Source: Gammaproteobacteria bacterium
GTDB taxonomy: Bacteria > Pseudomonadota > Gammaproteobacteria > Pseudomonadales > Azotimanducaceae
Assembly (NCBI GenBank): GCA_003248125.1
Contig: QJXZ01000169.1
Coordinates: 1-33,513, forward strand
Reading direction: 5' to 3'
Length of the DNA stretch: 33,513 bases
Program-made: the position numbers and the translations under genes
Part shown: in pieces, positions 13,184-29,798 of the stretch
How positions within the stretch are numbered: position 1 is the stretch's first letter
How the letters are laid out: every line of letters begins with the position of its first letter
The notes under the pieces: model-generated
Told to the model about the DNA's origin: nothing
The model's database searches: none
Seen by the model: the letters and a program-made list of their open reading frames with translations, nothing else

Positions 13184-15049
13184 TCACGGTCGGTACCAAA
13201 TGGGTGACGACCACGCCCGCTCTTGAATGGTGGCGTGTAAATCAGGACGTGGCGCGACACCGGCGCGGATGGCATCCCACGTCGACCAGCGACAAGTCGG
13301 ATTCTCCAGCGCGCGGACGTAGTAGAAGGCGCGTTCGCCGGCATCGAACGTCGGGTCCTGCCACAGCACCTTGAGCTCGGCAGCCCCCTTTTCTCGTGTG
13401 ATCGAGCAATCGGTGAGGTCGACGGTAGCGCCATTGTCGGGGCAACGGTGGGTGCCGGGATCGGCCGTGAGCCCGTCGCTGCACGCAACATCGAAGACTT
13501 GCTCTTGCGATTGTCCTTCGCGCATGAAGCCCTTGATTACTTGTACACGCTGCAAGGCAGCGCTGCCCGGATCGGCCGTTGCCCACACGATGAACTTCGG
13601 GATGCTGCCGTTGCGTGCCATTAGATCACCTCCCATAGTCACGCCTTGCGCATAGGCGGTCTTCACCAAGTCGCGTCGATCGAGCAAGTCGGCTTCGAAG
13701 TCGTGGCTGGCGAAGAACCGTACGCGCATGCGCGGTCCGGTAGTGGCAAACGTTTCTTTCCGACGAAACGCATCGAATAGCGATTCGCGCGTGTTCTCTT
13801 CCGCCCACACCCCGGCGAGACCGGACGCGCTCCAGTAGTGGTAATAGCCGGAATCGAAGCGGCTGCCATCGGCATTGGGCTGATCGAGCGGCACGGACCC
13901 ACGCTGTTGGCCAGTGGCGTCGAGCGTTCCCACTTTGCTCCAGTAGTTGTCCTCGTCGAACGAACCGGCGCCGACGTGTGTGTCACTCGAGCCGATCAAG
14001 CCGAATCGGTAGGGGTTGAACCCGTTTGCAGCCTCCATCGCAAGCCCGCGCCCCAACGCTTGGCGAACGTAACTGCCATCCGGTTCGCTGGCGAGCGTGC
14101 TCGCGATGCGAAGGGGCATGATCTCGAAGTCTGCCCACTCGTCGTTTGGCGAGAGGGCCGGGTGCGTATCCGAGGTGCCCTTGACTTGCGTCACTTCCAC
14201 CAGCGGTTCGTTGCGCAGGCGCTGGTCGGCGTAGGCGGCGTCGAGCGCGTTACCTTCGAAGTCGGTAAGCGCGAACATCTGACCGTTGGAACCGTTCGAG
14301 TTGTGCGGAATGGCGAGCGCCTCGAAGCCCGCTTCGCGCTGTGCGTCCATCCAATCCCACAAGTTCTCCGGGTTCATCGAATCGAGCCGACTGAACGGAA
14401 TTGCGGGGGCCGTGTTGCCGCGGTAGATGACGTTGCGGTGCAGGTTCTGCGACTCCGGCCCCGAGGTGTACTCGTAGGCAATGAAGGCGGTGAAGCGGCC
14501 GGGGTCGTTGTGCCGCTCGGCTGCCGCTTGGATGTCTGCCCAGGCCGATTTCACCACGTCGAGATCGAGGATCTCGTTGTGATGCGTGCCGTCGAGGTAG
14601 GGACGAATACCCATGTACGCCGCGCGCCGTTCGGCTACGGTCTTGGCGTCCGCGAATGCTTTCATCACCGGAATTTTCGACACCGGTGAAGCGGGATCGC
14701 TAGCGGCGGCCATCATGCCGAGAAACATCGCGTGATCGGTCACGCCTTGGAAGTCGAGCGGTGCGCGCAGTTGCAGCTCGAATCCAGCGGGGTGGGAGAT
14801 GGCTTCGCCCTTGGCGAATCGATAGGCATCGTCGGGTGTCGCGCGCGTGCCGAAGATGAAGGCGTCGAAGGAGTAACGCGTATGCACGTGCAGATCGCCG
14901 TAGTAGGCATTGCGATCGGGATTCGGTGCAGATCGGGTCGACGCTTGTACCGCGGGTTCGTTGGCTGCTGGTGGCGATGCGGGCGGTTGGGGCTCCGAGC
15001 AGGCTGTGAGCCCTATCAGGAAGAGCGTGAAAAGTGTCAGTTCGCGCAT
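13184..15049 (-). CDS. DUF3604 lipoprotein, PHP-like metalloenzyme
   Basis: A 621-residue protein with a lipobox LTAC (Cys17) followed by a Pro/Ala-rich linker, so probably a periplasmic or outer-membrane lipoprotein. The mature part is DUF3604, related to PHP-type metal-dependent phosphoesterases. Metal-binding-like motifs are YGDLHVHTRYSFDA (His54, His56), VTDHAMFLG, FIAYEYT, IPHNSN and IGSSDTHVGAGS. Three or four cysteines near the C-terminus may form disulfides. The ATG at 15049 has GGAG about ten bases upstream. The true substrate of DUF3604 proteins is unknown to me. A palindrome-rich gap separates it from the thiolase gene. Confidence 0.88.
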   Translation of the reverse strand: MRELTLFTLFLIGLTACSEPQPPASPPAANEPAVQASTRSAPNPDRNAYYGDLHVHTRYSFDAFIFGTRATPDDAYRFAKGEAISHPAGFELQLRAPLDFQGVTDHAMFLGMMAAASDPASPVSKIPVMKAFADAKTVAERRAAYMGIRPYLDGTHHNEILDLDVVKSAWADIQAAAERHNDPGRFTAFIAYEYTSGPESQNLHRNVIYRGNTAPAIPFSRLDSMNPENLWDWMDAQREAGFEALAIPHNSNGSNGQMFALTDFEGNALDAAYADQRLRNEPLVEVTQVKGTSDTHPALSPNDEWADFEIMPLRIASTLASEPDGSYVRQALGRGLAMEAANGFNPYRFGLIGSSDTHVGAGSFDEDNYWSKVGTLDATGQQRGSVPLDQPNADGSRFDSGYYHYWSASGLAGVWAEENTRESLFDAFRRKETFATTGPRMRVRFFASHDFEADLLDRRDLVKTAYAQGVTMGGDLMARNGSIPKFIVWATADPGSAALQRVQVIKGFMREGQSQEQVFDVACSDGLTADPGTHRCPDNGATVDLTDCSITREKGAAELKVLWQDPTFDAGERAFYYVRALENPTCRWSTWDAIRAGVAPRPDLHATIQERAWSSPIWYRP

Positions 15050-17426: not shown

Positions 17427-18122
17427 ATGTGCGGGCGCATCAACATTCACTCGGGGCCGCTGACACTCTTGTTCATGGACATGCTGGGTGTCGGCTACAC
17501 CGGTGACGATCGGTTCAACGTCGCACCCACCGAATCGCTGCCGATCTTCAGAAACACCAAAGAGGGCGCACTCGAATGTGCGGATGCGCGCTGGTGGCTG
17601 ACGCCGTACTGGTCGAAGGAAGTGTCGACCAAGTACAGCATGTTCAACGCGAAGGCTGAGACGTTGGCCGATAGTCGTGCATTCCGCGAACCGTTTGCGC
17701 GCCGGCGCTGTCTGGTGCCGGTCGCAGGCTTCTACGAATGGGTACGCAAGGGTAGCGTCAAAGAGCCGTATTACATTCGCGCGCGCGACGACGCTGGCTT
17801 GCTGCTTGCCGGCATTTGGGATCGCTGGCGCGGCGACGACCGCACCATCGACAGCTTCGCGGTGGTGACCACGAAGGTGCATCCGAAGCTCGAGTTCGTG
17901 CACAACCGGCAACCGGTCATGTTGTCGCGCGAGGAGGGTCGCCGCTGGCTCGATCCGCATGCCGAGCGAGTGACCCTCGATGACCTGATGGTGAGCCACC
18001 TGCCCGGCGACTTGACGGTCGTGCCGGTCAGCACCTACGTCAACAATGCCCGCAATCAAGGCGAACGTTGCATGGCACCAGTCGGTGCCGAGATTGCCGT
18101 CGACCGCGGCGCGCCGATTTGA
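17427..18122 (+). CDS. yedK: SRAP-family abasic-site processing protein
   Basis: A 231-residue homologue of E. coli YedK and human HMCES. These proteins form a thiazolidine crosslink with abasic sites in single-stranded DNA and so protect stalled forks. All key residues appear: Cys2 (MCGR, exposed after Met removal), Asn74 (MFNAKAET), Glu104 (GFYEW) and His159 (FVHNRQPVML). Because Cys2 must be the N-terminus after processing, the ATG at 17427 is fixed. The gene starts 13 bp after the aldo/keto reductase remnant and ends within the -35 region of the downstream TetR promoter. Confidence 0.94.
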   Translation: MCGRINIHSGPLTLLFMDMLGVGYTGDDRFNVAPTESLPIFRNTKEGALECADARWWLTPYWSKEVSTKYSMFNAKAETLADSRAFREPFARRRCLVPVAGFYEWVRKGSVKEPYYIRARDDAGLLLAGIWDRWRGDDRTIDSFAVVTTKVHPKLEFVHNRQPVMLSREEGRRWLDPHAERVTLDDLMVSHLPGDLTVVPVSTYVNNARNQGERCMAPVGAEIAVDRGAPI

Positions 18123-18146
18123 CAAAATGACCGAATTGGTTAATTT
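18119..18146 (+). promoter_or_regulatory. Predicted promoter of the TetR-export operon
   Basis: A perfect -35 hexamer TTGACA (18119-18124) overlaps the yedK stop. After 16 bases comes a -10-like TAATTT (18141-18146). Transcription would start around 18153-18156, at or just before the ATG of the TetR gene, so the transcript would be leaderless or nearly so. The operator palindrome covers the spacer and -10. Confidence 0.5.
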
Positions 18147-18153
18147 GGTCATT
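18126..18153. promoter_or_regulatory. 28-bp palindromic operator at the TetR start codon
   Basis: The outer half-sites AATGACC and GGTCATT and the inner AATT/AATT blocks are mirror images: 11 of 14 base pairs match across the dyad centred between 18139 and 18140. Size and symmetry suit a TetR-family dimer (or a pair of dimers). It ends two bases before the ATG and overlaps the predicted -10, so binding would repress the whole downstream operon. I noticed no second copy in the window. Confidence 0.75.
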
Positions 18154-18155
18154 CT

Positions 18156-18851
18156 ATGAATGTCGCCGATCTCACCGCCCTCGCCACCCAGCTCGACGCC
18201 TACCTGTGGCCCGAGGAGGACGCGAGACAACGCCGCAAACGAGAATCCATCCTCACAGCGGCAGCCGAGCTGTTCGTTCGTCAGGGCTACCGCAAGACCA
18301 GTGTCGATCAAGTCGCGGCTGCGGCAGGGGTGGCGAAGGGCACGGTTTATCTCTACTACCGCAACAAGGCGGAACTGGTTTGTAGCGCCATCGCGCTGGA
18401 GAAACGCGCCTACGTGCGGCGGCTGACACCGCTGCGTGACGCAACCGTCACTGCGCGCGATCGGCTGCGGCTATTGATCGCGCTCGGCTTGACCTTGAGC
18501 CACGAAATGCCGCTGACGATGAGCCTGACCAGCGGTGACCGGGAAATCGAGCTCGCGTTTCGCGAGCTCGACCAGCAAGCGCTGACCGACATCAACGAAC
18601 TGCAGTTGCGAATGTCGAAGCAGTTGCTCGACGCGGCCACCGACGGAACGCTGCCCGAAGAGGTGTTGCATACCCGCGCGCAAGTGCTCGTCGACCTGCT
18701 GCGCGCGGTCGCCACATCGAGCTTCGTGAACGCCGAGGGATCGAGTTGGGATGCATATGCGCACACCATGGCCAACGTGATCGTCGATGGCGTTTGTGGC
18801 GATGTTCATGGCGTCGACTTGGCCGCCGACCGGCAGCGAGGTGCCGCATGA
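18156..18851 (+). CDS. TetR/AcrR-family transcriptional regulator
   Basis: A 231-residue regulator. After a 25-residue leader containing LDAYLWPEED, the HTH domain reads SILTAAAELFVRQGYRKTSV, DQVAAAAGVAKGTVYLYYRNK (about 31-71), the standard TetR DNA-binding module. The rest is helical and would bind an unknown ligand. No Shine-Dalgarno precedes the ATG at 18156; the palindrome occupies that space, and a leaderless message is likely. Its stop overlaps the next ATG (ATGA), so it is the first gene of the export operon and probably an autorepressor. The ligand may be the exported substrate or an acyl compound, but nothing in the sequence fixes this. Confidence 0.93.
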   Translation: MNVADLTALATQLDAYLWPEEDARQRRKRESILTAAAELFVRQGYRKTSVDQVAAAAGVAKGTVYLYYRNKAELVCSAIALEKRAYVRRLTPLRDATVTARDRLRLLIALGLTLSHEMPLTMSLTSGDREIELAFRELDQQALTDINELQLRMSKQLLDAATDGTLPEEVLHTRAQVLVDLLRAVATSSFVNAEGSSWDAYAHTMANVIVDGVCGDVHGVDLAADRQRGAA

Positions 18852-19609
18852 TGCGGTCGCTAACCACCATCGCCACTTGCTTCGCCTTGACGCTGACCGC
18901 GACCGCACGGGCCAACGACCCACGAGCCGTGACCATCGTCGAGGGTGCCATCGATTTGACGCGCGGAATTTCGTCGTATGCCGAGTTGTCGATGACGATT
19001 CATCGGCCCGATTGGGAGCGCAGCTCGTCGCTCGTCGCCTGGACGCGCGGGCGCGACGATGCGCTGATCCGATTTACTGCGCCTGCGAAGGATGCTGGCA
19101 ACGCAACCCTCAAAGACGGCCCGAAGATGTGGACGTTCACGCCCAAGCTCAATCGCGTCATCCGGCTGCCCTACAGCATGATGGCTCAGGATTGGGCGGG
19201 ATCCGATTTCTCGTACAACGATCTATCGCGTACCGATCAATTGCTCACCGAGTACACCCTCGAGCTCATCGATGAGCAGGTAGTGGACGGTCACGCTCAG
19301 TATCGCATCCGCGCCACACCGCACGACGATGCCCCCGTGGTTTGGGGCAAAGAAGAATTGCTGCTGCGTGACGACTACGTGCTGATCGAGCAAGTCTTCT
19401 ACGATCAGGCGATGCAGCCGCTGAAGCGGCTCGAAGCGCGAGAGATCGGTGAACTCGGCGGCCGTACGTTCGCTACGCGTATGCGCATGATCAAGCTCGA
19501 CGAACCCGACCATTGGACAGAAATGTCGTACACGCAGGCCGCATTCGACATCGACATCGACGATGCGATGTTCACCGTGTTCGCACTACAGTCGGGGCGG
19601 TCGCGGTGA
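18848..19609 (+). CDS. LolA-like outer-membrane lipoprotein-sorting family protein
   Basis: A 253-residue secreted protein. The signal peptide MMRSLTTIATCFALTLTATARA is probably cut before NDPRAV. The mature part matches the periplasmic family annotated as outer membrane lipoprotein-sorting protein (LolA-like half-barrel): Y-A-E-L-S-M-T-I near the start, then ALIRFTAPAKDAGNATLKDG, MWTFTPKLNRVIRLP, SDFSYNDLSRTD and late repeated strands. Such proteins are thought to carry hydrophobic molecules across the periplasm. The start is 18848 or 18851 (ATGATG), both following GAGGTG at 18838-18843. It overlaps the TetR gene by four bases and the next permease gene by four (GTGA). The cargo may be lipid or lipoprotein; it is not canonical LolA. 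Confidence 0.88.
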   Translation: MMRSLTTIATCFALTLTATARANDPRAVTIVEGAIDLTRGISSYAELSMTIHRPDWERSSSLVAWTRGRDDALIRFTAPAKDAGNATLKDGPKMWTFTPKLNRVIRLPYSMMAQDWAGSDFSYNDLSRTDQLLTEYTLELIDEQVVDGHAQYRIRATPHDDAPVVWGKEELLLRDDYVLIEQVFYDQAMQPLKRLEAREIGELGGRTFATRMRMIKLDEPDHWTEMSYTQAAFDIDIDDAMFTVFALQSGRSR

Positions 19610-20910
19610 GCGAACTCGTCGCACCACCCGAGCTCGTCGAGACACCGCGAGGACGACCAGGCATCAGCCTCGCGATAGCGATTGCCTGGCGCAATCTGGG
19701 TCGCAATCGTCGACGCACTTGGCTGACGGCGGGTGGCATCGGATTCGCGATTGCGCTGCTCGCGTTCGCGATCGCGCAACAGGTGGGCAGCTACGCCATG
19801 ATGATCGACAACGCCACTGCGCTGGTGTCGGGCCATATGCAGATCCAGCACGAGGGCTACAGCGACGACCCCAAGATCGAATGGACCGTAACGAACGCGA
19901 CCGCGGTTGCACAGGCGTTGCGCGATCGGCCCGACGTGCGTGCGGCTACCGAGCGCGTCATGGCATTCGTGTTGGTCTCGGCCGGCGAGCGCAGCTTTGC
20001 CGGCCAGGTCGTTGGTGTCGACGCCGAGCACGAGCCAACGGTTTCCAACATCCCACGCATGCTCGTGGCCGGTCGCTTTCTAGATGCTCGAGATGACGAC
20101 CAGGCAGACGCCGATGGCACCGTGCAGGCCGTGATCGGTACGGGGCTCGCGCGCAACCTCAAGGCGGGCCTGGGCGGCGAGATCGTGCTGCTCGGCACCG
20201 ATGCCACCGGCAGCGTTGCGGCAATCGTCGCGCGCGTCGTCGGCATATTCAGCACCGGTCAGACGGAGCTCGATCGCGTGCTGCTCGAGGTGCCCATCGG
20301 TGCCGTCCGCGAGGCGTTCGCGCTCGGCGACGAGGCCCATGCCATCGTCATTCGCGCCAGCGACGTCTCCGCCGTCGCAGAAGTGGGGCGGCGCATTCGT
20401 GCGCGGCTTGCCGAGCCCGAAGTGCTGCTCGAATGGCAGGCGCTCATGCCCGAGCTGGAGCAGGGTATCGAGCTCGATCGCGTCAGCGGCAACTTCTTCT
20501 ACGGACTGCTGGCGCTGATCGTCACTTTCAGCGTGGTCAACACGTTCATCATGTCGGTGTTCGAGCGAACGCACGAATTCGGCATGATCTTGGCGCTCGG
20601 CATGCGGCCGTGGGCGATCATCGGCATGCTGCAGCTCGAGGCATTTTGGTTGTCGTTGTGCGGATTGCTCGGCGGCTTCGCGTTGGCCATACCGCTGATT
20701 GCGTACACCGCGACGGTTGGTATTCCGATGGGCGATGCGAGCGAGTACATGGCCAGATTTCACATGCCGGAGCGAATGTATGCGGGCTTCGCGGTCGAAG
20801 TGTTCGCTCGACCGGCGTTGCTGATGGTGGTTGCATCGCAATTTGCCGCACTGATTCCTGCGCTTCGAATTCGTCGTATCAATCCCGTGGAGGCTTTGCG
20901 TGCCCACTGA
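19606..20910 (+). CDS. FtsX/MacB-type ABC transporter permease 1
   Basis: A 434-residue permease of the LolC/LolE/MacB class. Order: cytosolic N-terminus with AWRNLGRNRRRTWLT (27-41), a transmembrane helix (about 40-58), a periplasmic MacB-like domain, then three C-terminal helices including FFYGLLALIVTFSVVNTFIM with the FtsX-type ERTHEFGMILALGMRP coupling segment, and a final helix followed by RINPVEALR. The first periplasmic segment holds GH-x9-DDP (76-89), shared with both following permeases. The start is a GTG at 19606 overlapping the LolA-like stop (GTGA). It is closest in wording to permease 2, so the two look like a duplicated pair. The ATPase is encoded separately downstream. Confidence 0.9.
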   Translation: MSELVAPPELVETPRGRPGISLAIAIAWRNLGRNRRRTWLTAGGIGFAIALLAFAIAQQVGSYAMMIDNATALVSGHMQIQHEGYSDDPKIEWTVTNATAVAQALRDRPDVRAATERVMAFVLVSAGERSFAGQVVGVDAEHEPTVSNIPRMLVAGRFLDARDDDQADADGTVQAVIGTGLARNLKAGLGGEIVLLGTDATGSVAAIVARVVGIFSTGQTELDRVLLEVPIGAVREAFALGDEAHAIVIRASDVSAVAEVGRRIRARLAEPEVLLEWQALMPELEQGIELDRVSGNFFYGLLALIVTFSVVNTFIMSVFERTHEFGMILALGMRPWAIIGMLQLEAFWLSLCGLLGGFALAIPLIAYTATVGIPMGDASEYMARFHMPERMYAGFAVEVFARPALLMVVASQFAALIPALRIRRINPVEALRAH

Positions 20911-22162
20911 TGCCGTCAGCGTGGGCCACCTGAGCGAGGCTCGCAAATCGCCGCCGTTGCTTGCCGCCATCGCCTGGCGAAATTTGTGGCGCAATACTCG
21001 ACGTACCTGGTTGACGAGCGGAGGTGTGGCATTTGCAGTATTCCTAGTCGTCATTGCGCGCTCGTTTCAGGACGGTAGCTTCGACGTGATGATCGACAAT
21101 GCCACGGGCATGTTGACCGGACACGCTCAGATTCAGAACGTGGCATTTGCCGACGATCCATCGCTGCGCAACACGGTCGCCGATGCTTCACGAATCGCAC
21201 GTCGCATTGCCGGCGATCCGAACGTCGCCGCAGTGGCGCAGCGCGGCCTGGCGTTTGCGCTGGTTTCCGTAGGAGAGCGCAGCTTCGGTGCGCAGGTGAT
21301 GGGCGTGGAACCCGACGCCGAACGAGTGATCTCGACGCTGCCGGCACTGGTACGTGAAGGCACCTATCTCGAAAAGGCCGACGACGTGGTGATTGGCGCC
21401 GCGTTGGCACGCAACTTGGGTGCGCATGTCGGTGACGAAATCGTCGTGCTGGGTACGGCCAAGGACGGATCGATCGCCGCATTCGCGGGCGACATCGCCG
21501 GCATCATCGATACCGGCATCGCGGAGGTCGAGCGTGGCTTGCTGCAGATTCCGCTGCCGCAGTTCCAGGCCGCATTCGGCTTGGGTGACGAAGCGCATGC
21601 CATCGTCGTCCGCGTACACGGGCTCGATGCCGTGGATGCAGTGAACACCGATGGGCTCGGCGACGAGCTCGACTATCTACCGTGGCAGCGTTTGATGCCC
21701 GAGATCGATCAGACTGTCGAGCTCAAGCGTGTCGGTACGAGAGTGATCTTCGGGTTGGTCACGTTGCTCGTCACGTTCAGTGTCTTCAACACTTTCATCA
21801 TGCTGGTCTACGAGCGCGTGCGCGAGTTCGGGATGTTGTTGGCGGTCGGCATGCGGCCGCGTGCCATCGTCGCGATGCTCGAGCTGGAAGCGGTGTGGCT
21901 GGCTGTGGTCGGTGTAGGGCTGGGACTGTTGGTGAGTACGGCACTCGTGTTGGCGGTTGCGCAGGTAGGCATTCCGCTGCCAGACGTCGGCGAAGTGTTG
22001 CGTCAGTATCATCTACCCGACCGCATATTTCCGTCGTTGTCGACGTCCGCCATGGTGGAAGGCGCAGTGCTGATGTGCATCGCCGTACCACTTGCCGGTT
22101 TGTTGCCGGCTCTGCGCATCGTACGGCTCGCGCCGGTGACAGCGCTCCGGAGCGATGCATGA
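20900..22162 (+). CDS. FtsX/MacB-type ABC transporter permease 2
   Basis: A 420-residue permease with the same plan as its neighbour: AWRNLWRNTRRTWLTSGG (25-42), helix, periplasmic domain with GH-x9-DDP (74-87), then C-terminal helices with VTFSVFNTFIMLVYERVREF and MLLAVGMRPRAIVAML, ending RLAPVTALRSDA. Shared phrases with permease 1 (RRTWLT, MIDNAT, GHxQIQ, VxVGERSFxxQVxGV) show common descent, yet they differ enough that a heterodimer is plausible. The GTG start at 20900 is set by GGAGG at 20889-20893, six bases upstream inside permease 1, giving an 11-base overlap. It overlaps permease 3 by four bases. Confidence 0.9.
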   Translation: MPTDAVSVGHLSEARKSPPLLAAIAWRNLWRNTRRTWLTSGGVAFAVFLVVIARSFQDGSFDVMIDNATGMLTGHAQIQNVAFADDPSLRNTVADASRIARRIAGDPNVAAVAQRGLAFALVSVGERSFGAQVMGVEPDAERVISTLPALVREGTYLEKADDVVIGAALARNLGAHVGDEIVVLGTAKDGSIAAFAGDIAGIIDTGIAEVERGLLQIPLPQFQAAFGLGDEAHAIVVRVHGLDAVDAVNTDGLGDELDYLPWQRLMPEIDQTVELKRVGTRVIFGLVTLLVTFSVFNTFIMLVYERVREFGMLLAVGMRPRAIVAMLELEAVWLAVVGVGLGLLVSTALVLAVAQVGIPLPDVGEVLRQYHLPDRIFPSLSTSAMVEGAVLMCIAVPLAGLLPALRIVRLAPVTALRSDA

Positions 22163-23385
22163 AAATGCCGCTGATCCTGCTGTTGCAATTGGGCTGGCGC
22201 AATTTGTGGCGCCAGCGGCGTCGCAATTTCATGCTGCTAGCGGCCATCCTCGTTGCCGTCGGCGGCGTGGTGCTGATCAATTCGCTCATTCGCGGATTTC
22301 AGTACGACATGATGGAGGACGCGGTAGAGAACCTGACCGGTCACGTCAAGGTGTTGGCGCCAGGGTATCGCGACGATCCGTCCATTGTGCAGGGGTTCGA
22401 GCTTGCCGACGGTTGGCAACCCTCGGTACCAACGGCAGAACTCGAGGGCTGGACACGGCGCGTGCGGGTCCCCGCGGTAGTCATGTCGGAGCGCGAGACG
22501 CGAGGTCTAAACCTGGTCGGCATCGATCCGGCCGACGAGCGTGATCTGTCTTTTCTGGGCACGGTGGCCATGTCAGGCGAGCGATTGCGCGATGCCGACG
22601 ATTCCCACATCGTGCTCGGTCGCGAGTTGCTCACACAGCTCGATACCAAGGTTGGACGTCGCGTCGTGGTCATCACGCAAGGCGCCGACGGACTCAATCG
22701 CGAGGCCGGCTTCCGCGTGATCGGCGCCTTCGACGCGGAGGGCACCGCACTCGAAAAGGCATTTGCGTTTACCGGCCGGACTGCGCTGCAGCGGCTGCTC
22801 GATACCGATGCCGTAACTGAAATATCGGTCCGCTTGACCGACGATGCACATTCCGCGGAGGCGAGTGCGGAGCTGGCGCGCGAGCTACCGTCGTTGCAGG
22901 TCATGGATTGGCGGCAACTCGAGCCGCTCGCGGCCGCCATGTTCGAATACTCGGATGCGGCCATCTTCGTCTGGTTCTTGATCGTCATGATCGCGCTCGC
23001 GTTTGGCTTGGTGAATACGCTGATCACGGCGGTGATGGAACGCGTACGCGAGTTCGGCATGCTGCGCGCCATTGGCATGCGGCCGGGTCAGATCGTCCTG
23101 CAAGTGTTGGTCGAGTCGACGCTGGTGATGTTGCTCGGGCTCGGTGGCGGCGTGGTGCTCGGTATGGGATTGGTGGCCTATTTTGCCGACGGCATCGACC
23201 TCTCGGCTTGGGCGCAAGGCGTCGAGATGGCGGGTTTGCGCTCGGTGCTCGTGCCGCGGCTCATGGCCGAAGACGTTGTGCTGGTGACCACGCTCTCGCT
23301 CGTGCTCGGGTTGCTGGGCAGTGCTTACCCGGCGTGGCGTGCGGTGAGCGTCAAACCGCTCGATGCACTGAGAAGGGGAACGTGA
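22159..23385 (+). CDS. FtsX/MacB-type ABC transporter permease 3
   Basis: A 408-residue permease, the most divergent of the three. It begins at ATG 22159 (GGAG six bases upstream, ATGA overlap with permease 2): LGWRNLWRQRRRNFMLLAAI, helix, periplasmic domain with GH-x9-DDP (61-74), then FVWFLIVMIALAFGLVNTLITAVMERVREFGMLRAIGMRP and SVKPLDALRRGT at the end. The C-terminal part, with RVREFGMLRAIGMRPGQIV, is close to LolE/MacB-type coupling segments. Three permeases with one ATPase is one more than the LolCDE plan needs. Alternative pairings (1+2, 1+3, 2+3) or two separate transporters sharing one ATPase are possible. Confidence 0.9.
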   Translation: MKMPLILLLQLGWRNLWRQRRRNFMLLAAILVAVGGVVLINSLIRGFQYDMMEDAVENLTGHVKVLAPGYRDDPSIVQGFELADGWQPSVPTAELEGWTRRVRVPAVVMSERETRGLNLVGIDPADERDLSFLGTVAMSGERLRDADDSHIVLGRELLTQLDTKVGRRVVVITQGADGLNREAGFRVIGAFDAEGTALEKAFAFTGRTALQRLLDTDAVTEISVRLTDDAHSAEASAELARELPSLQVMDWRQLEPLAAAMFEYSDAAIFVWFLIVMIALAFGLVNTLITAVMERVREFGMLRAIGMRPGQIVLQVLVESTLVMLLGLGGGVVLGMGLVAYFADGIDLSAWAQGVEMAGLRSVLVPRLMAEDVVLVTTLSLVLGLLGSAYPAWRAVSVKPLDALRRGT

Positions 23386-24092
23386 TGGCTGATGATGTGG
23401 TCGTGGTGTGCCGGCAACTGAGTCGCATCTACGATGATGACGGCGTACCGGTGAATGCGCTCGACGGTGTCGACTTCGACGTCACGCGCGGTGATTTCGT
23501 CAGTCTCGCTGGTCCCTCGGGTTCCGGCAAGTCGACACTGCTCAACCTCATCGGCGGCTTGGACGAGCCGACATCGGGCAATGTCGTCGTCGACGGTACG
23601 AACCTCGCCGATCTCGATCAATCGCAGCGGTCCGATCTACGCCTCAACAAGATTGGGTTCGTATTTCAGTCTTACAACCTCATTCCCGTGCTGACCGCGC
23701 GTGAGAACGTGGAGTTCATCATGCAGCTGCAAGGCGTGCACGCCGCCGAACGGCATCGGCGCGCGATCGACATGCTGTCGTCGCTGGGTATCGGCGATCT
23801 CGGCGACCGCAGGCCGGGCGAATTGTCCGGTGGTCAGCAGCAGCGCGTGGCGGTCGCACGCGCGATCGTCACTCACCCCGTACTGCTGTTGGCCGATGAG
23901 CCGAGTGCCAACCTAGATTCGAAGACTACCGAGGGTCTGCTCGACCTGTTGCGCACGATCAACCGGGAGCATGGCGTCACGATCATCACGGCTACGCACG
24001 ACCCCATGGTGATGTCCTATGCGCGGCGCAGGGTGCACTTGAAGGACGGGCGAATCGAGTCGGATGAGCGTGCGGGTGCGCTCACGGTTTGA
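23385..24092 (+). CDS. LolD/MacB-type ABC transporter ATPase
   Basis: A 235-residue ABC ATPase. Walker A GPSGSGKST (43-51), Q-loop Gln95 (GFVFQSYNLIP), signature LSGGQQQR (147-154), Walker B LLLADEP (167-173, Glu172) and switch His205 are all present, so it should hydrolyse ATP. NALDGVDFDV and FVFQSYNLIPVLTARENVE are typical of ATPases serving FtsX-type permeases (MacB, LolD). AAGGGG lies a few bases before the ATG, and the start overlaps the permease 3 stop by one base (TGATG). It is the only ATPase in the operon and must serve all three permeases or some of them. Confidence 0.95.
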   Translation: MADDVVVVCRQLSRIYDDDGVPVNALDGVDFDVTRGDFVSLAGPSGSGKSTLLNLIGGLDEPTSGNVVVDGTNLADLDQSQRSDLRLNKIGFVFQSYNLIPVLTARENVEFIMQLQGVHAAERHRRAIDMLSSLGIGDLGDRRPGELSGGQQQRVAVARAIVTHPVLLLADEPSANLDSKTTEGLLDLLRTINREHGVTIITATHDPMVMSYARRRVHLKDGRIESDERAGALTV

Positions 24093-25311
24093 AATACCAC
24101 TGTTGATCTTTGCCTGCGCGGCTGCCCACGGCGCAGAGCTGGATCTTCGTCTGAAGGGCTTTGGCAGCATCGCCTGGTTGCCGGAAGACGATTTGCAGCG
24201 TGCGATCGACGGTTCACCGAGCCGCGATGGCAGTCTCGACCTGCGCAGCATGTTCGAGCACCAGTCTGGGGCTTGGCGTTTGGTGGCCGAGCACGACGCG
24301 ATCTATCAATTCGGCGACTCGCTGACCGCTGCGGCGGCGCCGCAGGGCATGCTCGACCAGACACCGACCGACGACGAGCGGCGCCTCCTCGATCTGACTT
24401 GGACGCTCGGCGATGGCGACGACTATCGCGTCTACCATCGGTTCGATCGCTTGGCGGCCGAGTATCGGCGCAGCGATTGGGGGCTGACGATCGGGCGCCA
24501 GGCGGTGAGCTGGGGCAGTGGACTCGTGTTCCAACCGTTGGATCTCTACTCGCCGTTCGCACCCACCACGGTCGATCGTGACTACAAACCGGGCGACGAC
24601 GTGGTGATATTGGATCGATTGAACGCCGGTGGCAGCGATCTGCAGTTGCTGACGGTTTGGCGTCGCGACGAGCGCGGCCACAGAGACGTCGACGAGTCGT
24701 CACTCGGTGGCAAGTTCCACGTTTTCCACGGCGATCTCGACATCGAAACCATGATTGGACGTCACTACACCGACACCGTGTACGGTGTGAGCCTACGTAT
24801 GCCGCTCGGCACGGCACTCATGCGCACCGATTGGCTGCTGACCGACCTCGATGGGGGCGCTACAAAGTTGTCCGGCATCGTCAATGTCGACTACAGCTTC
24901 GATGCGTTCGGCAAGAGTTGGTACGTGTTTGGTGAGTACTTCCGCAACGGCTTCGGCGTGTCGGGTGAGCCGCTCGACGTCTCCTCGCTGCCGCCGGCGT
25001 TGCTCGTGCGACTTTCGCGCGGGGAAGTCTTCAGTCTGATGAAGGATTACTTTGCGGTTGGTGCGCAGTTGCAGTGGCACCCGCTGATCACCCAGTCAGC
25101 GACGGTGATCATGAATCTTCACGACGGTTCAACCCTGTGGCAGACGACTCTCTCCTACGACGCATCTGACGAAGCCCGGCTGCAGGCCGGCGTTGTGCTA
25201 CCGGTCGGCGACCGCGGCGAGGAATTCGGCGAGATCGAGTTGCCACCCATTGGTCAGTTCACGACCGGCGGTGCGGTTCAGGCATACCTTCGCGCCGTCT
25301 ATTACTTTTGA
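24064..25311 (+). CDS. Porin-like outer-membrane beta-barrel protein
   Basis: A 415-residue protein with a signal peptide (MSVRVRSRFEIPLLIFACAAAHGA) and alternating strands to the end. The last residues AYLRAVYYF form the C-terminal beta-signal with terminal Phe recognised by the Bam complex. Motifs GLTIGRQAVSWGSG and DLYSPFAPT recall porin-like or exporter barrels, but I cannot name a family. It overlaps the ATPase gene by 29 bases; the start at 24064 is favoured because the signal peptide begins there, though in-frame GTGs at 24070 and 24076 are possible. As the last gene of the operon it could be the outer-membrane end of the export route or the insertion point for cargo delivered by the LolA-like protein. 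Barrel nature is likely; role is inferred. Confidence 0.8.
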   Translation: MSVRVRSRFEIPLLIFACAAAHGAELDLRLKGFGSIAWLPEDDLQRAIDGSPSRDGSLDLRSMFEHQSGAWRLVAEHDAIYQFGDSLTAAAAPQGMLDQTPTDDERRLLDLTWTLGDGDDYRVYHRFDRLAAEYRRSDWGLTIGRQAVSWGSGLVFQPLDLYSPFAPTTVDRDYKPGDDVVILDRLNAGGSDLQLLTVWRRDERGHRDVDESSLGGKFHVFHGDLDIETMIGRHYTDTVYGVSLRMPLGTALMRTDWLLTDLDGGATKLSGIVNVDYSFDAFGKSWYVFGEYFRNGFGVSGEPLDVSSLPPALLVRLSRGEVFSLMKDYFAVGAQLQWHPLITQSATVIMNLHDGSTLWQTTLSYDASDEARLQAGVVLPVGDRGEEFGEIELPPIGQFTTGGAVQAYLRAVYYF

Positions 25312-25402: not shown

Positions 25403-26320
25403 TCAATCGATCAAGACCGGTGCGCCTGCCTTCTTCACTGCGACATCGTGCGCGGCCTTGGCTTCGAGCAATTGCGGCATGTAGCGGTCGATCTCGTCGA
25501 GCGTCCATGTGCCGCTCTTCTTCTGAAACGACTTGATCACCGCCGGTTGCTGCATGATGCCCAGCATCCCGCGTGCGGAGTGAACGATCTGGTTCGACAC
25601 GGCGCCGGCTTCCTCGGTGGCGAGCCAGGCGACGATCGGTGCGACGTGTTGCGGCCCACCGGCGTCCAGATCCGATGCCGCTACCTTCTCGCCGCGCCGT
25701 TCCCGCAATGGAATGGTCATGCGCGTGAGCGCTGCGGGCGAGATGGTGTTCACGGTGCAGCCGTATTTGGCGAGTTCCAGAGCAAGCACGCGCGTGAAGC
25801 CGGCGATACCGGCCTTGGCAGCACCATAGTTCGCTTGCCCGAAGTTACCGAATAGCCCCGAGGTGCTCGAGAAGTTGATGATTCGGCAATTGGTGCGGTT
25901 GTTCTCGCGGATGTATGCCGCAAACGGTCGTGCGCAGCAGTAATGGCCCTTCAGGTGCACGGCGATCACGGCGTCCCAATCCGATTCGTCCATGTTGAAG
26001 ATGGTTTTGTCCCGCAAGATACCGGCGTTGTTGACCAGTATGTCGAGCCCGCCGAACGCGTCGATTGCGGTGGCCAGCAGCGACTCGCCGCCCGCGACAG
26101 TCGCGATCGACTCGGTGTGCGACACCGCCTGGCCGCCAGCCTTGTTGATTTCGGCGACCACGTCGTCGGCGATCTTGCCGGTACCCGTGCCATCGGTGTT
26201 GCCGCCGAGGTCGTTGACCACGACCCGCGCGCCTTCCCGTGCCATCAGTTTCGCGATTTCGGCGCCGATGCCCCGTCCGGCACCCGTTACCGCTGCAATG
26301 CGTCCTTCCAACCTGCCCAT
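25403..26320 (-). CDS. HSD17B4-like short-chain dehydrogenase
   Basis: A 305-residue NAD(P)-dependent SDR. The cofactor site is TGAGRGIG (12-19), with VNDLGGN and NNAG (97-100). The catalytic set is Ser152 (NFSSTSG), Tyr165 and Lys169 (YGAAK). VNDLGGN, VNNAGILRDK, FGNFGQANYGAAK and TRMT closely recall the dehydrogenase domain of peroxisomal multifunctional enzyme 2 (HSD17B4), which oxidises (3R)-hydroxyacyl-CoA, so a beta-oxidation role is likely. The ATG at 26320 follows GGGAGGG by about nine bases; upstream in-frame codons lack a signal. It diverges from the histidine phosphatase gene across a region with an inverted repeat. Confidence 0.88.
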   Translation of the reverse strand: MGRLEGRIAAVTGAGRGIGAEIAKLMAREGARVVVNDLGGNTDGTGTGKIADDVVAEINKAGGQAVSHTESIATVAGGESLLATAIDAFGGLDILVNNAGILRDKTIFNMDESDWDAVIAVHLKGHYCCARPFAAYIRENNRTNCRIINFSSTSGLFGNFGQANYGAAKAGIAGFTRVLALELAKYGCTVNTISPAALTRMTIPLRERRGEKVAASDLDAGGPQHVAPIVAWLATEEAGAVSNQIVHSARGMLGIMQQPAVIKSFQKKSGTWTLDEIDRYMPQLLEAKAAHDVAVKKAGAPVLID

Positions 26321-26390
26321 GTCGTCTTTCCCTCCCATCGATGGTCGCCGATCGACGCCGGCGACTTGTCGCCAAGCGAAGGTTCGGGAT

Positions 26391-26410
26391 ACTAATACAC
26401 GCGAATTAGT
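26391..26410. promoter_or_regulatory. Inverted repeat, possible operator
   Basis: ACTAAT and ATTAGT form a dyad with an eight-base centre in the 110-bp region between the divergent SDR and phosphatase genes. It is AT-rich compared with its surroundings. A dimeric regulator, for example a TetR type, could bind here. No regulator gene is adjacent. Confidence 0.4.
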
Positions 26411-26430
26411 CGAGCCATGAGGGCATCTCC

Positions 26431-27099
26431 TTGGTGGAGTTGGGTGGACGCACGCGCGATCTGATCGAATACGCATTCGAGCGCGGCGCGCCTCACGTCG
26501 CCGTTCTGATGCGCCACTCTGCGCGCGAATTCGAACCGGGTCGGCACGACCTCTTGAATCCGCTCACCAACGAAGGCCGGCGACTCGCCGAGTCGTTCGG
26601 ACAGGCATTACCCAAAGAAGCGCTCGTGCGCGGCTATGCGAGTCCGGCCGAACGGTGCATGGAAACGGCGGCATTGGCCTTGGATGGTCACGCCGCGGGC
26701 GGCGGTCGGGTCACGCGTCACCGACCGATCGAGGCACTCGGTGTCTTCTACGTGCTCGATCAAATGCGAATGTACAAAGCGATGACCGCGGCCAGCGGGC
26801 AGGTGCCGTTCTTGCGTCGTTGGTTCGATGGCGGCGTCGCCGCTGACATCATGATGCCGGCGGATCTGGCGGCGCGCATCGTCGGGCGCGTGGTTGGCGA
26901 AAAGGTGAGGCAGAGCGTTGCGCAGCCACAGATCGATCTGTGCGTGTCGCACGACATGACGCTGTATCTGGTGCGCGAGCAGTTGCTCGGCCTCGCGCCG
27001 GAAGAGGAACCCGTCGAGTTTCTCGATGGCATCGTGGTGTTCGAGCGGGATGGACAACTGCTTGCCCTTTCCGCATGCGGCCGCGAGGCGGAGATCTGA
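26431..27099 (+). CDS. Histidine phosphatase family protein
   Basis: A 222-residue member of the histidine phosphatase (phosphoglycerate-mutase-like) superfamily. The phosphohistidine motif is LMRHSARE (Arg28, His29), and CVSHDMTLY near residue 171 supplies the second histidine; NPLTNEGRRLAESFG matches the usual LT-x-x-G-x-x-x-A segment. It has no signal peptide. The start is TTG 26431 or GTG 26434; GAGGG at 26419-26423 fits either. It lies nine bases upstream of the acyl-CoA synthetase gene and is surely co-transcribed with it. Substrate is unknown; the neighbourhood suggests a link to acyl-CoA metabolism. Confidence 0.8.
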   Translation: MVELGGRTRDLIEYAFERGAPHVAVLMRHSAREFEPGRHDLLNPLTNEGRRLAESFGQALPKEALVRGYASPAERCMETAALALDGHAAGGGRVTRHRPIEALGVFYVLDQMRMYKAMTAASGQVPFLRRWFDGGVAADIMMPADLAARIVGRVVGEKVRQSVAQPQIDLCVSHDMTLYLVREQLLGLAPEEEPVEFLDGIVVFERDGQLLALSACGREAEI

Positions 27100-29006: not shown

Positions 29007-29798
29007 ATGGTGATCGGCGCGGATTGGTACAACGGCATCTGGAATCCATCTGTCGGGATCGTTGTCGCATACACGCTCGTTCTGACCCATTTGACGATCG
29101 TCTCGGTGACGGTGTATCTGCACCGCTACTCGGCCCATCGCGCGCTCGAACTGCATCCGGTATTGCAACACTCATTCCGATTCTGGCTCTGGCTCACGAC
29201 GGGCATGCTCACCAAGCAATGGACCGCTATACACCGCAAGCATCACGCGACGTGCGAGACGGTCGACGATCCACACAGCCCGCAAACTCGCGGGCTTGCG
29301 ACCGTTCTGTTTGGCGGCGCAGAACTCTACGGCCTCGAGGCGCACAATCCGGAGACGCTCGAGCGTTTTGGCCGCGGCACGCCCGACGATTGGATGGAAC
29401 GCAATGTCTATGGGCGCTACAAGCGCTACGGCATTGCGTTGATGGCGATTGTCGATGTGCTGTTGTTCGGTGTGCTCGGCCTTACGGTGTGGGCCGTGCA
29501 AATGCTGTGGATCCCGTTCTTCGGGGCGGGTGTGGTGAACGGACTTGGCCACTATGCGGGCTATCGCAACTTCGAAACTCCGGATGCGGCGACGAACCTG
29601 CTACCGTGGGGCTTGCTCATCGGTGGCGAGGAACTTCACAACAATCACCACGCCCACCCGAACTCGGCAAAGCTATCGGTCAAGTGGTGGGAATTCGACA
29701 TGGGGTGGTTCTGGATCCGGTTGTTCTCGGTGCTAGGTCTCGCCAAGCCATTGCGGGTTGGTACATCCGTCAATTCACGCGCCACCGGCGAGAACTGA
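29007..29798 (+). CDS. Acyl-CoA/fatty-acid desaturase
   Basis: A 263-residue membrane di-iron desaturase. The histidine boxes are HRYSAH (39-44), HRKHH (76-80) and HNNHH (211-215, in EELHNNHHAHPNSAKLS), plus NGLGHYAGYRNFETPDAATN, as in delta-9 acyl-CoA desaturases. Hydrophobic segments near 14-36, 52-68, 142-162 and 164-180 fit a four-helix enzyme. It would introduce a cis double bond into saturated acyl chains and so adjust membrane fluidity. It is shorter than many homologues, which often exceed 300 residues, but all boxes are present. A run of G (GAGGGGGCTGGGG) lies before the ATG with loose spacing. Confidence 0.92.
   Translation: MVIGADWYNGIWNPSVGIVVAYTLVLTHLTIVSVTVYLHRYSAHRALELHPVLQHSFRFWLWLTTGMLTKQWTAIHRKHHATCETVDDPHSPQTRGLATVLFGGAELYGLEAHNPETLERFGRGTPDDWMERNVYGRYKRYGIALMAIVDVLLFGVLGLTVWAVQMLWIPFFGAGVVNGLGHYAGYRNFETPDAATNLLPWGLLIGGEELHNNHHAHPNSAKLSVKWWEFDMGWFWIRLFSVLGLAKPLRVGTSVNSRATGEN

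Follow-up and report, generated by a model that had tools for sequence, protein, structure and literature searches.

A seven-gene operon in a gammaproteobacterial contig probably encodes a dedicated, TetR-controlled route for the export of a hydrophobic molecule across the whole cell envelope. The likeliest cargo is a lipid or lipid-like metabolite, and the route would be the ATP-binding cassette (ABC) counterpart of systems driven by resistance-nodulation-division (RND) pumps. The operon (18156-25311, + strand) lies in a stretch of 33,513 nucleotides (the window), which is a single contig (G000:C295) of a 4.24-Mb genome. The operon joins a type VII ABC pump to carrier and barrel types that run with RND pumps in other bacteria. 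Little is known about how hydrophobic molecules beyond lipopolysaccharide, lipoproteins and phospholipids arrive at the outer membrane or pass through it, and in this case motor, carrier, exit barrel and a predicted operator are united in one compact operon. Among the matches listed in the open-licence PubMed Central (PMC) literature, no function was assigned to this exact gene set. The original prediction that the operon has no assigned function held in this strict sense, although related sets of LolA-superfamily proteins and barrels have been published (AmeABCD and Borrelia BBJ23-29, discussed below).

All seven open reading frames (ORFs) are encoded on the + strand in the order TetR, LolA-like protein, permeases A, B and C, ATPase and barrel, and the sequence overlaps at the successive junctions by 4, 4, 11, 4, 1, and 29 bases. 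The TetR-family regulator (18156..18851) matched the Pfam family PF00440 TetR_N (E = 5.7e-17), and the LolA-like protein (18848..19609), presumed to be a periplasmic carrier, matched PF17131 LolA_like (3.6e-46). The FtsX/MacB-type permeases A (19606..20910), B (20900..22162) and C (22159..23385), the first two with GTG starts, matched FtsX (PF02687; 2.8e-14, 1.7e-14 and 2.5e-16, respectively) and MacB_PCD (PF12704; 4e-14, 1.9e-09 and 1.1e-11), while the LolD/MacB-type ABC ATPase (23385..24092) matched PF00005 ABC_tran (2.4e-35), with LolD as its best NCBIfam model (215.2 bits). The C-terminal FtsX domain and the MacB periplasmic core in all three permeases, together with the ABC ATPase, exceeded the curated cut-offs and place the pump in type VII (MacB superfamily). 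The last gene (24064..25311) is predicted to encode a porin-type outer-membrane beta-barrel, a distant relative of DUF1302, based on an AlphaFold2 model and hhalign comparison. Genes, families and overlaps were all re-read as first predicted.

Co-occurrence of the set in other genomes was searched in three samples: the best 80 of 425 relatives, collected through the barrel (L071-L150, the named set), 40 loci of further relatives (L031-L070), and 20 loci sampled more widely in the phylum. The named relatives were uncultured Gammaproteobacteria or Proteobacteria, several of them labelled Pseudomonadales or Halieaceae. The order LolA-permeases-ATPase-barrel was found again in all three samples, and since this core order recurs in other genomes, the operon is not a chance arrangement; the set was kept together, in line with the prediction of a single envelope-spanning unit. 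LolA and a strong ATPase match were both present in 66/80 named loci, 35/40 loci of relatives and 19/20 loci of the wider phylum. Thirteen of the 14 named loci without this pair begin within or near the operon, with LolA outside the stretch covered. A same-strand ATPase gene adjoined the barrel in 78 of the 80 named loci. The locus counts are not independent, because 18 of the 40 barrels in L031-L070 recur in L071-L150 and the barrel served as bait for nearly all loci. Barrel homologues were detected in 52 of 97 genomes (source genome counted in), and the barrel profile matched at E ≤ 0.001 in 58/293 genomes of the order (42/293 at 150 bits or more) and in 84/398 genomes of the phylum, where many matches were weak. 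From the named relatives we infer that the operon is conserved across classes of one phylum, the Pseudomonadota.

The number of permeases differed between operons, while one of them remained constant. Among the 66 named operons with LolA and ATPase, 38 had two permease ORFs, 26 had three, and one each had four and five; all 66 contained exactly one C-type permease and one to four A/B-type permeases, the C-type gene being the last of the permease genes to end. Stop-to-stop ORFs underlie these counts, and the A/B and C types could be told apart clearly in near relatives but not in distant loci. The operon with five permease ORFs (L106:2322-9217, +) carried four of the A/B type and one of the C type. 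In a midpoint-rooted FastTree phylogeny of 102 A/B proteins, 36/36 second-or-later copies grouped in a single clade with 38 members (local support 0.916), and the two remaining members (L073 and L108) count as first copies only since their loci are cut. Because the second-or-later copies group in one clade, permease B is an old duplicate of A, and further copies arose later in L106-L109. The third permease had been taken for a defining addition to the system; this view did not hold, as the operons vary from two to five permease ORFs. In two operons of the same kind (L068:10340-12853 and L200:10623-13136, both – strand) one ORF of 838 amino acids (aa) contained two fused permease domains. A single ATPase gene, one C-type permease with one to four A/B copies, and these fused ORFs fit a two-permease unit, and A-C and B-C pairs may form alternative pumps on the single ATPase.

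The LolA-like protein starts with a segment that by eye resembles a signal sequence, and it passed the curated PF17131 cut-off (157.6 vs. 30 bits). Its AlphaFold2 model (predicted local distance difference test, pLDDT, 91.6) was, among the matches listed, closest to the solved folds LolA3 (9tp6), DUF1329 (4z48), 3bk5 and 3buu. Template modeling (TM) scores on query length were 0.74-0.79 to Porphyromonas gingivalis LolA3, the DUF1329 protein, NE2245 and a Vibrio protein, 0.54 to P. gingivalis LolB, and 0.38-0.48 to the canonical LolA entries among those matches. The pump also stayed below the canonical Lol models, with 88.8, 93.5, and 119.8 bits for the permeases against the TIGR02212 lolCE cut-off of 362.45, and 215.2 bits for the ATPase against the TIGR02211 LolD cut-off of 307.75. 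For the two permeases searched, A and C, the nearest solved chain by sequence was LolF. Lol genes were present elsewhere in the same genome: contig C155 carries two LolC/E-type permease genes (390.3 and 331.8 bits, one above and one below 362.45) that flank a related ATPase ORF, LolB is encoded at C188, and a LolA fragment lies at the end of contig C58.

In a sequence alignment of A, B and C with four permeases from two further systems, the Hook hairpin was five columns shorter in all of them than in the presumed LolC of the genome, which was named by gene order, and in all seven it was shorter than in the presumed LolE too. The Hook of LolC recruits LolA, and is described as essential in Escherichia coli and predicted to be universal (PMC10865981). 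Because a full LolC Hook is absent, docking of the permeases to the LolA-like protein must differ. The operon resembles LolABCDE in its FtsX-type permeases, its LolD-like ATPase and its LolA-superfamily carrier, but it includes a barrel and its carrier fold is nearer to DUF1329 and LolA3 than to LolA. The missed Lol cut-offs, the shortened Hook and the Lol genes elsewhere in the genome set the operon apart from canonical LolCDE, which was rejected as a reading.

As a prediction, the identity of the last ORF as an outer-membrane barrel has good support from its beta-barrel model and the porin-type structural matches. The AlphaFold2 model had a mean pLDDT of 89.9 and 19 strand elements; barrels of the OprD/Occ/AlgE type have 18 strands. 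AlgE was the top Foldseek match, and among the first 41 matches listed the model aligned to OprD/Occ porins and AlgE over 282-335 residues (VIA Z 21.6-24.6). Residues 144-180 were the most conserved 37, with a mean majority identity of 88% compared to 62% over residues 25-415, and residues 151-170 were among the least confident of the model. A sequence search of the PDB with the barrel profile returned chance-level matches only, and PF06980 (DUF1302) had no match across the source genome, as in the control set. A relation appeared at the profile level: in hhalign, the barrel profile matched seven DUF1302-type barrels of RND loci at 99.5% (E = 6e-23), and at 97.7% when the close-family alignment was used, compared to 4% (E = 0.01) for one unrelated FadL-type alignment of three sequences as a control. 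Six of the seven comparison barrels stood beside an MMPL pump, and the two that were scanned with Pfam both matched PF06980 (6.3e-15 and 2.5e-19). The barrel therefore seems to be distantly homologous to DUF1302 barrels. It does not stand alone, and sets of a LolA-superfamily protein, a DUF1302 protein and an RND pump are published.

Such RND counterparts were looked for in 16 regions, 14 with weak and two with strong barrel matches. Eight of the 14 regions (L217, L218, L222-L226, and L229) had a LolA-profile match beside their weak barrel, and MMPL was found in all seven large ORFs scanned with Pfam, one ORF from each of seven loci. Six loci (L218, L223, L224, L225, L226, and L229) combined a LolA match, an MMPL pump and a barrel match. 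Three barrel ORFs of RND loci were scanned with Pfam, of which those of L218 and L223 matched DUF1302 and that of L219 (669 aa) matched no family. The LolA-like profiles of the window family and of the RND loci matched at 99.2% in a profile comparison. Other arrangements were seen as well. At L229:1506-4634 (–), MMPL and LolA_like are contained in a single ORF of 1043 aa adjoining the barrel match, and at L226:1442-4234 (+) an MMPL pump with a C-terminal cyclic-nucleotide-binding domain lies between the LolA and barrel matches. Another ABC layout, consisting of ATPase, one permease, LolA match and barrel match, was observed at L222:2467-6477 (+).

The source genome contains two more genes of the LolA_like family. 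On contig C52 (G000:C52, L163:7752-10683, –) a cluster cut by the contig end contains an ABC ATPase that carries a YHS domain at its C terminus, a LolA_like gene and a barrel-like ORF. On contig C326 (G000:C326, L164:7956-10725, –) the third LolA_like gene is directly followed by a barrel-like ORF with 43% identity to that of C52. As window, C52 and C326 all pair them, every PF17131 gene detected in the genome, three in total, sits with a barrel-type gene. In a two-row alignment, the barrel-like ORFs of C52 and C326 matched the barrels of the RND loci at 98.7% and the window family at 68.9%.

Among published systems, AmeABCD of Castellaniella defragrans is described as a conserved cassette linked to hydrophobic compounds, in which a DUF1302 outer-membrane protein and a LolA-superfamily periplasmic protein occur with an inner-membrane RND pump, and whose deletion lowers monoterpene tolerance (PMC6394551). 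In that account the cassette has an RND (HAE3) motor and a COG4447 protein, whereas the motor here is an ABC pump with at least two permeases. To judge from its published description, the nearest ABC analogue is the proposed Borrelia cluster BBJ23-29, which shares a type VII ABC ATPase and permease, a LolA-like protein and an outer-membrane barrel (PMC13078400). That cluster differs in its Omp85-family barrel, its single permease proposed to act as a homodimer and its two TPR proteins, and is known from spirochaetes, where it is mostly plasmid-borne; neither the Omp85 nor the TPR family was detected by Pfam among the seven operon proteins. Loci of Porphyromonas and Prevotella, reported as strongly induced under iron or hemin limitation, share TetR, a so-named outer membrane lipoprotein-sorting protein and hypothetical proteins, but differ in having an MMPL (RND) motor, some with further ABC ATPase genes (PMC10434189, PMC10470040).

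The use of the same shuttle and barrel types with a different pump points to a modular, little-studied export route. We tentatively propose, with less confidence than for the operon itself, a general export architecture with a swappable motor, in which a LolA-family shuttle and a DUF1302-class barrel are served by either an RND or a type VII ABC pump, and in whose ABC version one permease half is constant and the other is multiplied (up to four copies) to widen the range of substrates. The constant C and multiplied A/B permeases give a clear prediction on how specificity is set. As the carrier and barrel types are shared with RND systems, testing one member could help to assign many proteins that are named for lipoprotein sorting or classified as DUF1302.

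A predicted operator/promoter (18119..18155, +) precedes the operon and runs up to the TetR start codon. In it, TTGACA comes before the palindrome AATGACCGAATTGGTTAATTTGGTCATT (18126-18153). The 12-nt arms of the palindrome are complementary at 11/12 positions, and shuffling the 141-bp region 3000 times gave such a repeat only 9 times. The palindrome is the sole copy in the genome within three mismatches; a second place with such a palindrome in the window is at 18546. A consensus promoter scan returned no site, although TTGACA is present. A block with TTGAC, AATGACC and TTGGTCA was kept before the TetR start in the window, L034 and L059 despite their diverged TetR proteins, and only in these three is TetR the first same-strand gene, behind the conserved block. 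The palindrome is less well matched in L034 and L059, where the arm scan gave none of the window type. TetR is predicted to bind the window palindrome at 18126-18153.

While a search with a single TetR sequence found few neighbours, a profile search covering 112 loci that extend 1 kb or more upstream detected a TetR-type gene adjoining LolA in 54. The window TetR and six further TetR genes made up this profile, and those six also count towards the 54. Counting distinct LolA proteins, TetR adjoined LolA in 43/95 loci (38/61 named, 2/18 further relatives and 3/16 wider phylum), with 41 divergent and two same-strand arrangements (L034 and L059). On the basis of this adjacency, TetR as a chance neighbour was rejected. 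Its predicted role as regulator is supported by recurrence in near relatives and by the operator-like palindrome of the window; its place at the head of the operon is not general, since the gene is divergent in 41/43 loci and rare in distant relatives.

In the proposed mechanism, permease C and an A/B-type permease would sit on a dimer of the single ATPase as a type VII ABC motor, which would lift the hydrophobic substrate out of the inner membrane using ATP; extra A/B copies might offer a choice between A-C and B-C pumps. The LolA-like protein would take the substrate into its cavity via contacts other than a full Hook, cross the periplasm and dock at the porin-type barrel, where residues 144-180 are a candidate docking or gating element, and the substrate would pass into or across the outer membrane. 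TetR on the palindrome over the promoter would block the operon until a ligand releases it. As for the cargo, a lipid or lipid-like metabolite is our first guess and a lipoprotein our second.

Several observations weigh against this export route. Its outward direction is read from ABC family membership alone, and the barrel resembles the OprD/Occ uptake porins no less than it does the exporter AlgE. The window barrel matched no Pfam family, PF06980 DUF1302 included, and only 5/25 members of the barrel family matched DUF1302 at E ≤ 10 (best 1.6e-5); members also matched Porin_O_P (one, 5.5e-5) and Wzi (two, best 0.034). Permeases A, B and C are without the full LolC Hook on which LolA recruitment depends. 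The gene set was not intact at every locus: L095, with the barrel alone of the operon genes, and L150 have no ATPase adjoining the barrel, about 7.7 kb separate ATPase and barrel in L069, L210 has ATPase and barrel without a LolA or permease match, and L130 carries other DNA between LolA and the permeases. Concerning the regulator, TetR beside LolA is rare in distant loci (the 2/18 and 3/16 given above), and divergent TetR-LolA junctions had no clear excess of palindromes, as arms of at least 10 nt occurred in 5/38 compared to 8.4% of simple shuffles.

The original prediction of a lipid or lipoprotein route stood as to an export set that is not canonical Lol, while its lipoprotein half is disfavoured. 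A second, specialised lipoprotein-sorting route, in which particular lipoproteins are extracted by the permeases and ferried by the LolA-like protein, with the barrel as their receptor or surface translocon, would agree with LolC/E and LolD as the nearest NCBIfam models, with LolF as the nearest solved chain for A and C, and with the name of PF17131, outer membrane lipoprotein-sorting protein; lipoproteins are also listed as a possible ligand by the authors of the Borrelia study (PMC13078400). We nevertheless consider this route unlikely, as the Lol scores are far below the curated cut-offs, the Hook reported as essential is shortened, the genome carries LolC/E-type genes, LolB and a LolA fragment at other places, and carrier and barrel types occur also with RND pumps. 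The closest solved relative of the carrier, LolA3, moreover is reported to bind its LolB weakly (PMC13103446). An efflux pump of the MacAB-TolC kind with unusual parts is very improbable. MacB_PCD in all three permeases is the likeness to MacAB-TolC, but ATPase and permeases are separate genes, a LolA-like shuttle is present, Pfam detected neither a MacA adaptor nor TolC in the seven proteins, and the barrel models as porin-type. MacAB-TolC was rejected on these grounds, and the claim that the operon is neither this pump nor LolCDE was borne out.

Slightly less likely than lipoprotein sorting is an uptake or solvent-tolerance module, in which the barrel admits a hydrophobic compound that the LolA-like protein and the ABC pump handle in the periplasm or inner membrane, tied to the nearby lipid degradation genes. 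The match of the barrel to OprD-type porins and the lipid metabolism genes around the operon fit such a role. These genes are inconstant neighbours: a homologue of the SDR oxidoreductase convergent to the barrel (25403-26476, –) was found within 3 kb of the barrel in 34/73 named loci, 12/36 loci of relatives and 0/20 loci of the wider phylum. Because of this inconstancy, the lipid-gene context is only a hint to the cargo. We also know of no type VII ABC importer, which counts against uptake. Published work also fits such a module: AmeB, a LolA-superfamily protein, is described as required for growth on monoterpenes (PMC6394551), and DUF1302/DUF1329 genes as required on Tween 20 (PP_0765/PP_0766, proposed as a transport system; PMC10866462). 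Both sets are precedents for the export reading as well. Overall, we favour export of a lipid or lipid-like metabolite by the seven-gene operon over these alternatives.

The genes around the operon included those for a thiolase, an acyl-CoA dehydrogenase, an acyl-CoA ligase, a desaturase and an enoyl-CoA hydratase; clustering of the flanks gave many ORFs that were taken for reverse-strand shadows. A full-length DUF3604 protein (E = 1e-234), without an NCBIfam match at 1e-10, is encoded at 13184-15049 (–). Near the acyl-CoA ligase and enoyl-CoA hydratase genes, the ORF at 29007-29798 (+) encodes a DesA-family fatty acid desaturase (455.7 vs. the curated 400 bits).

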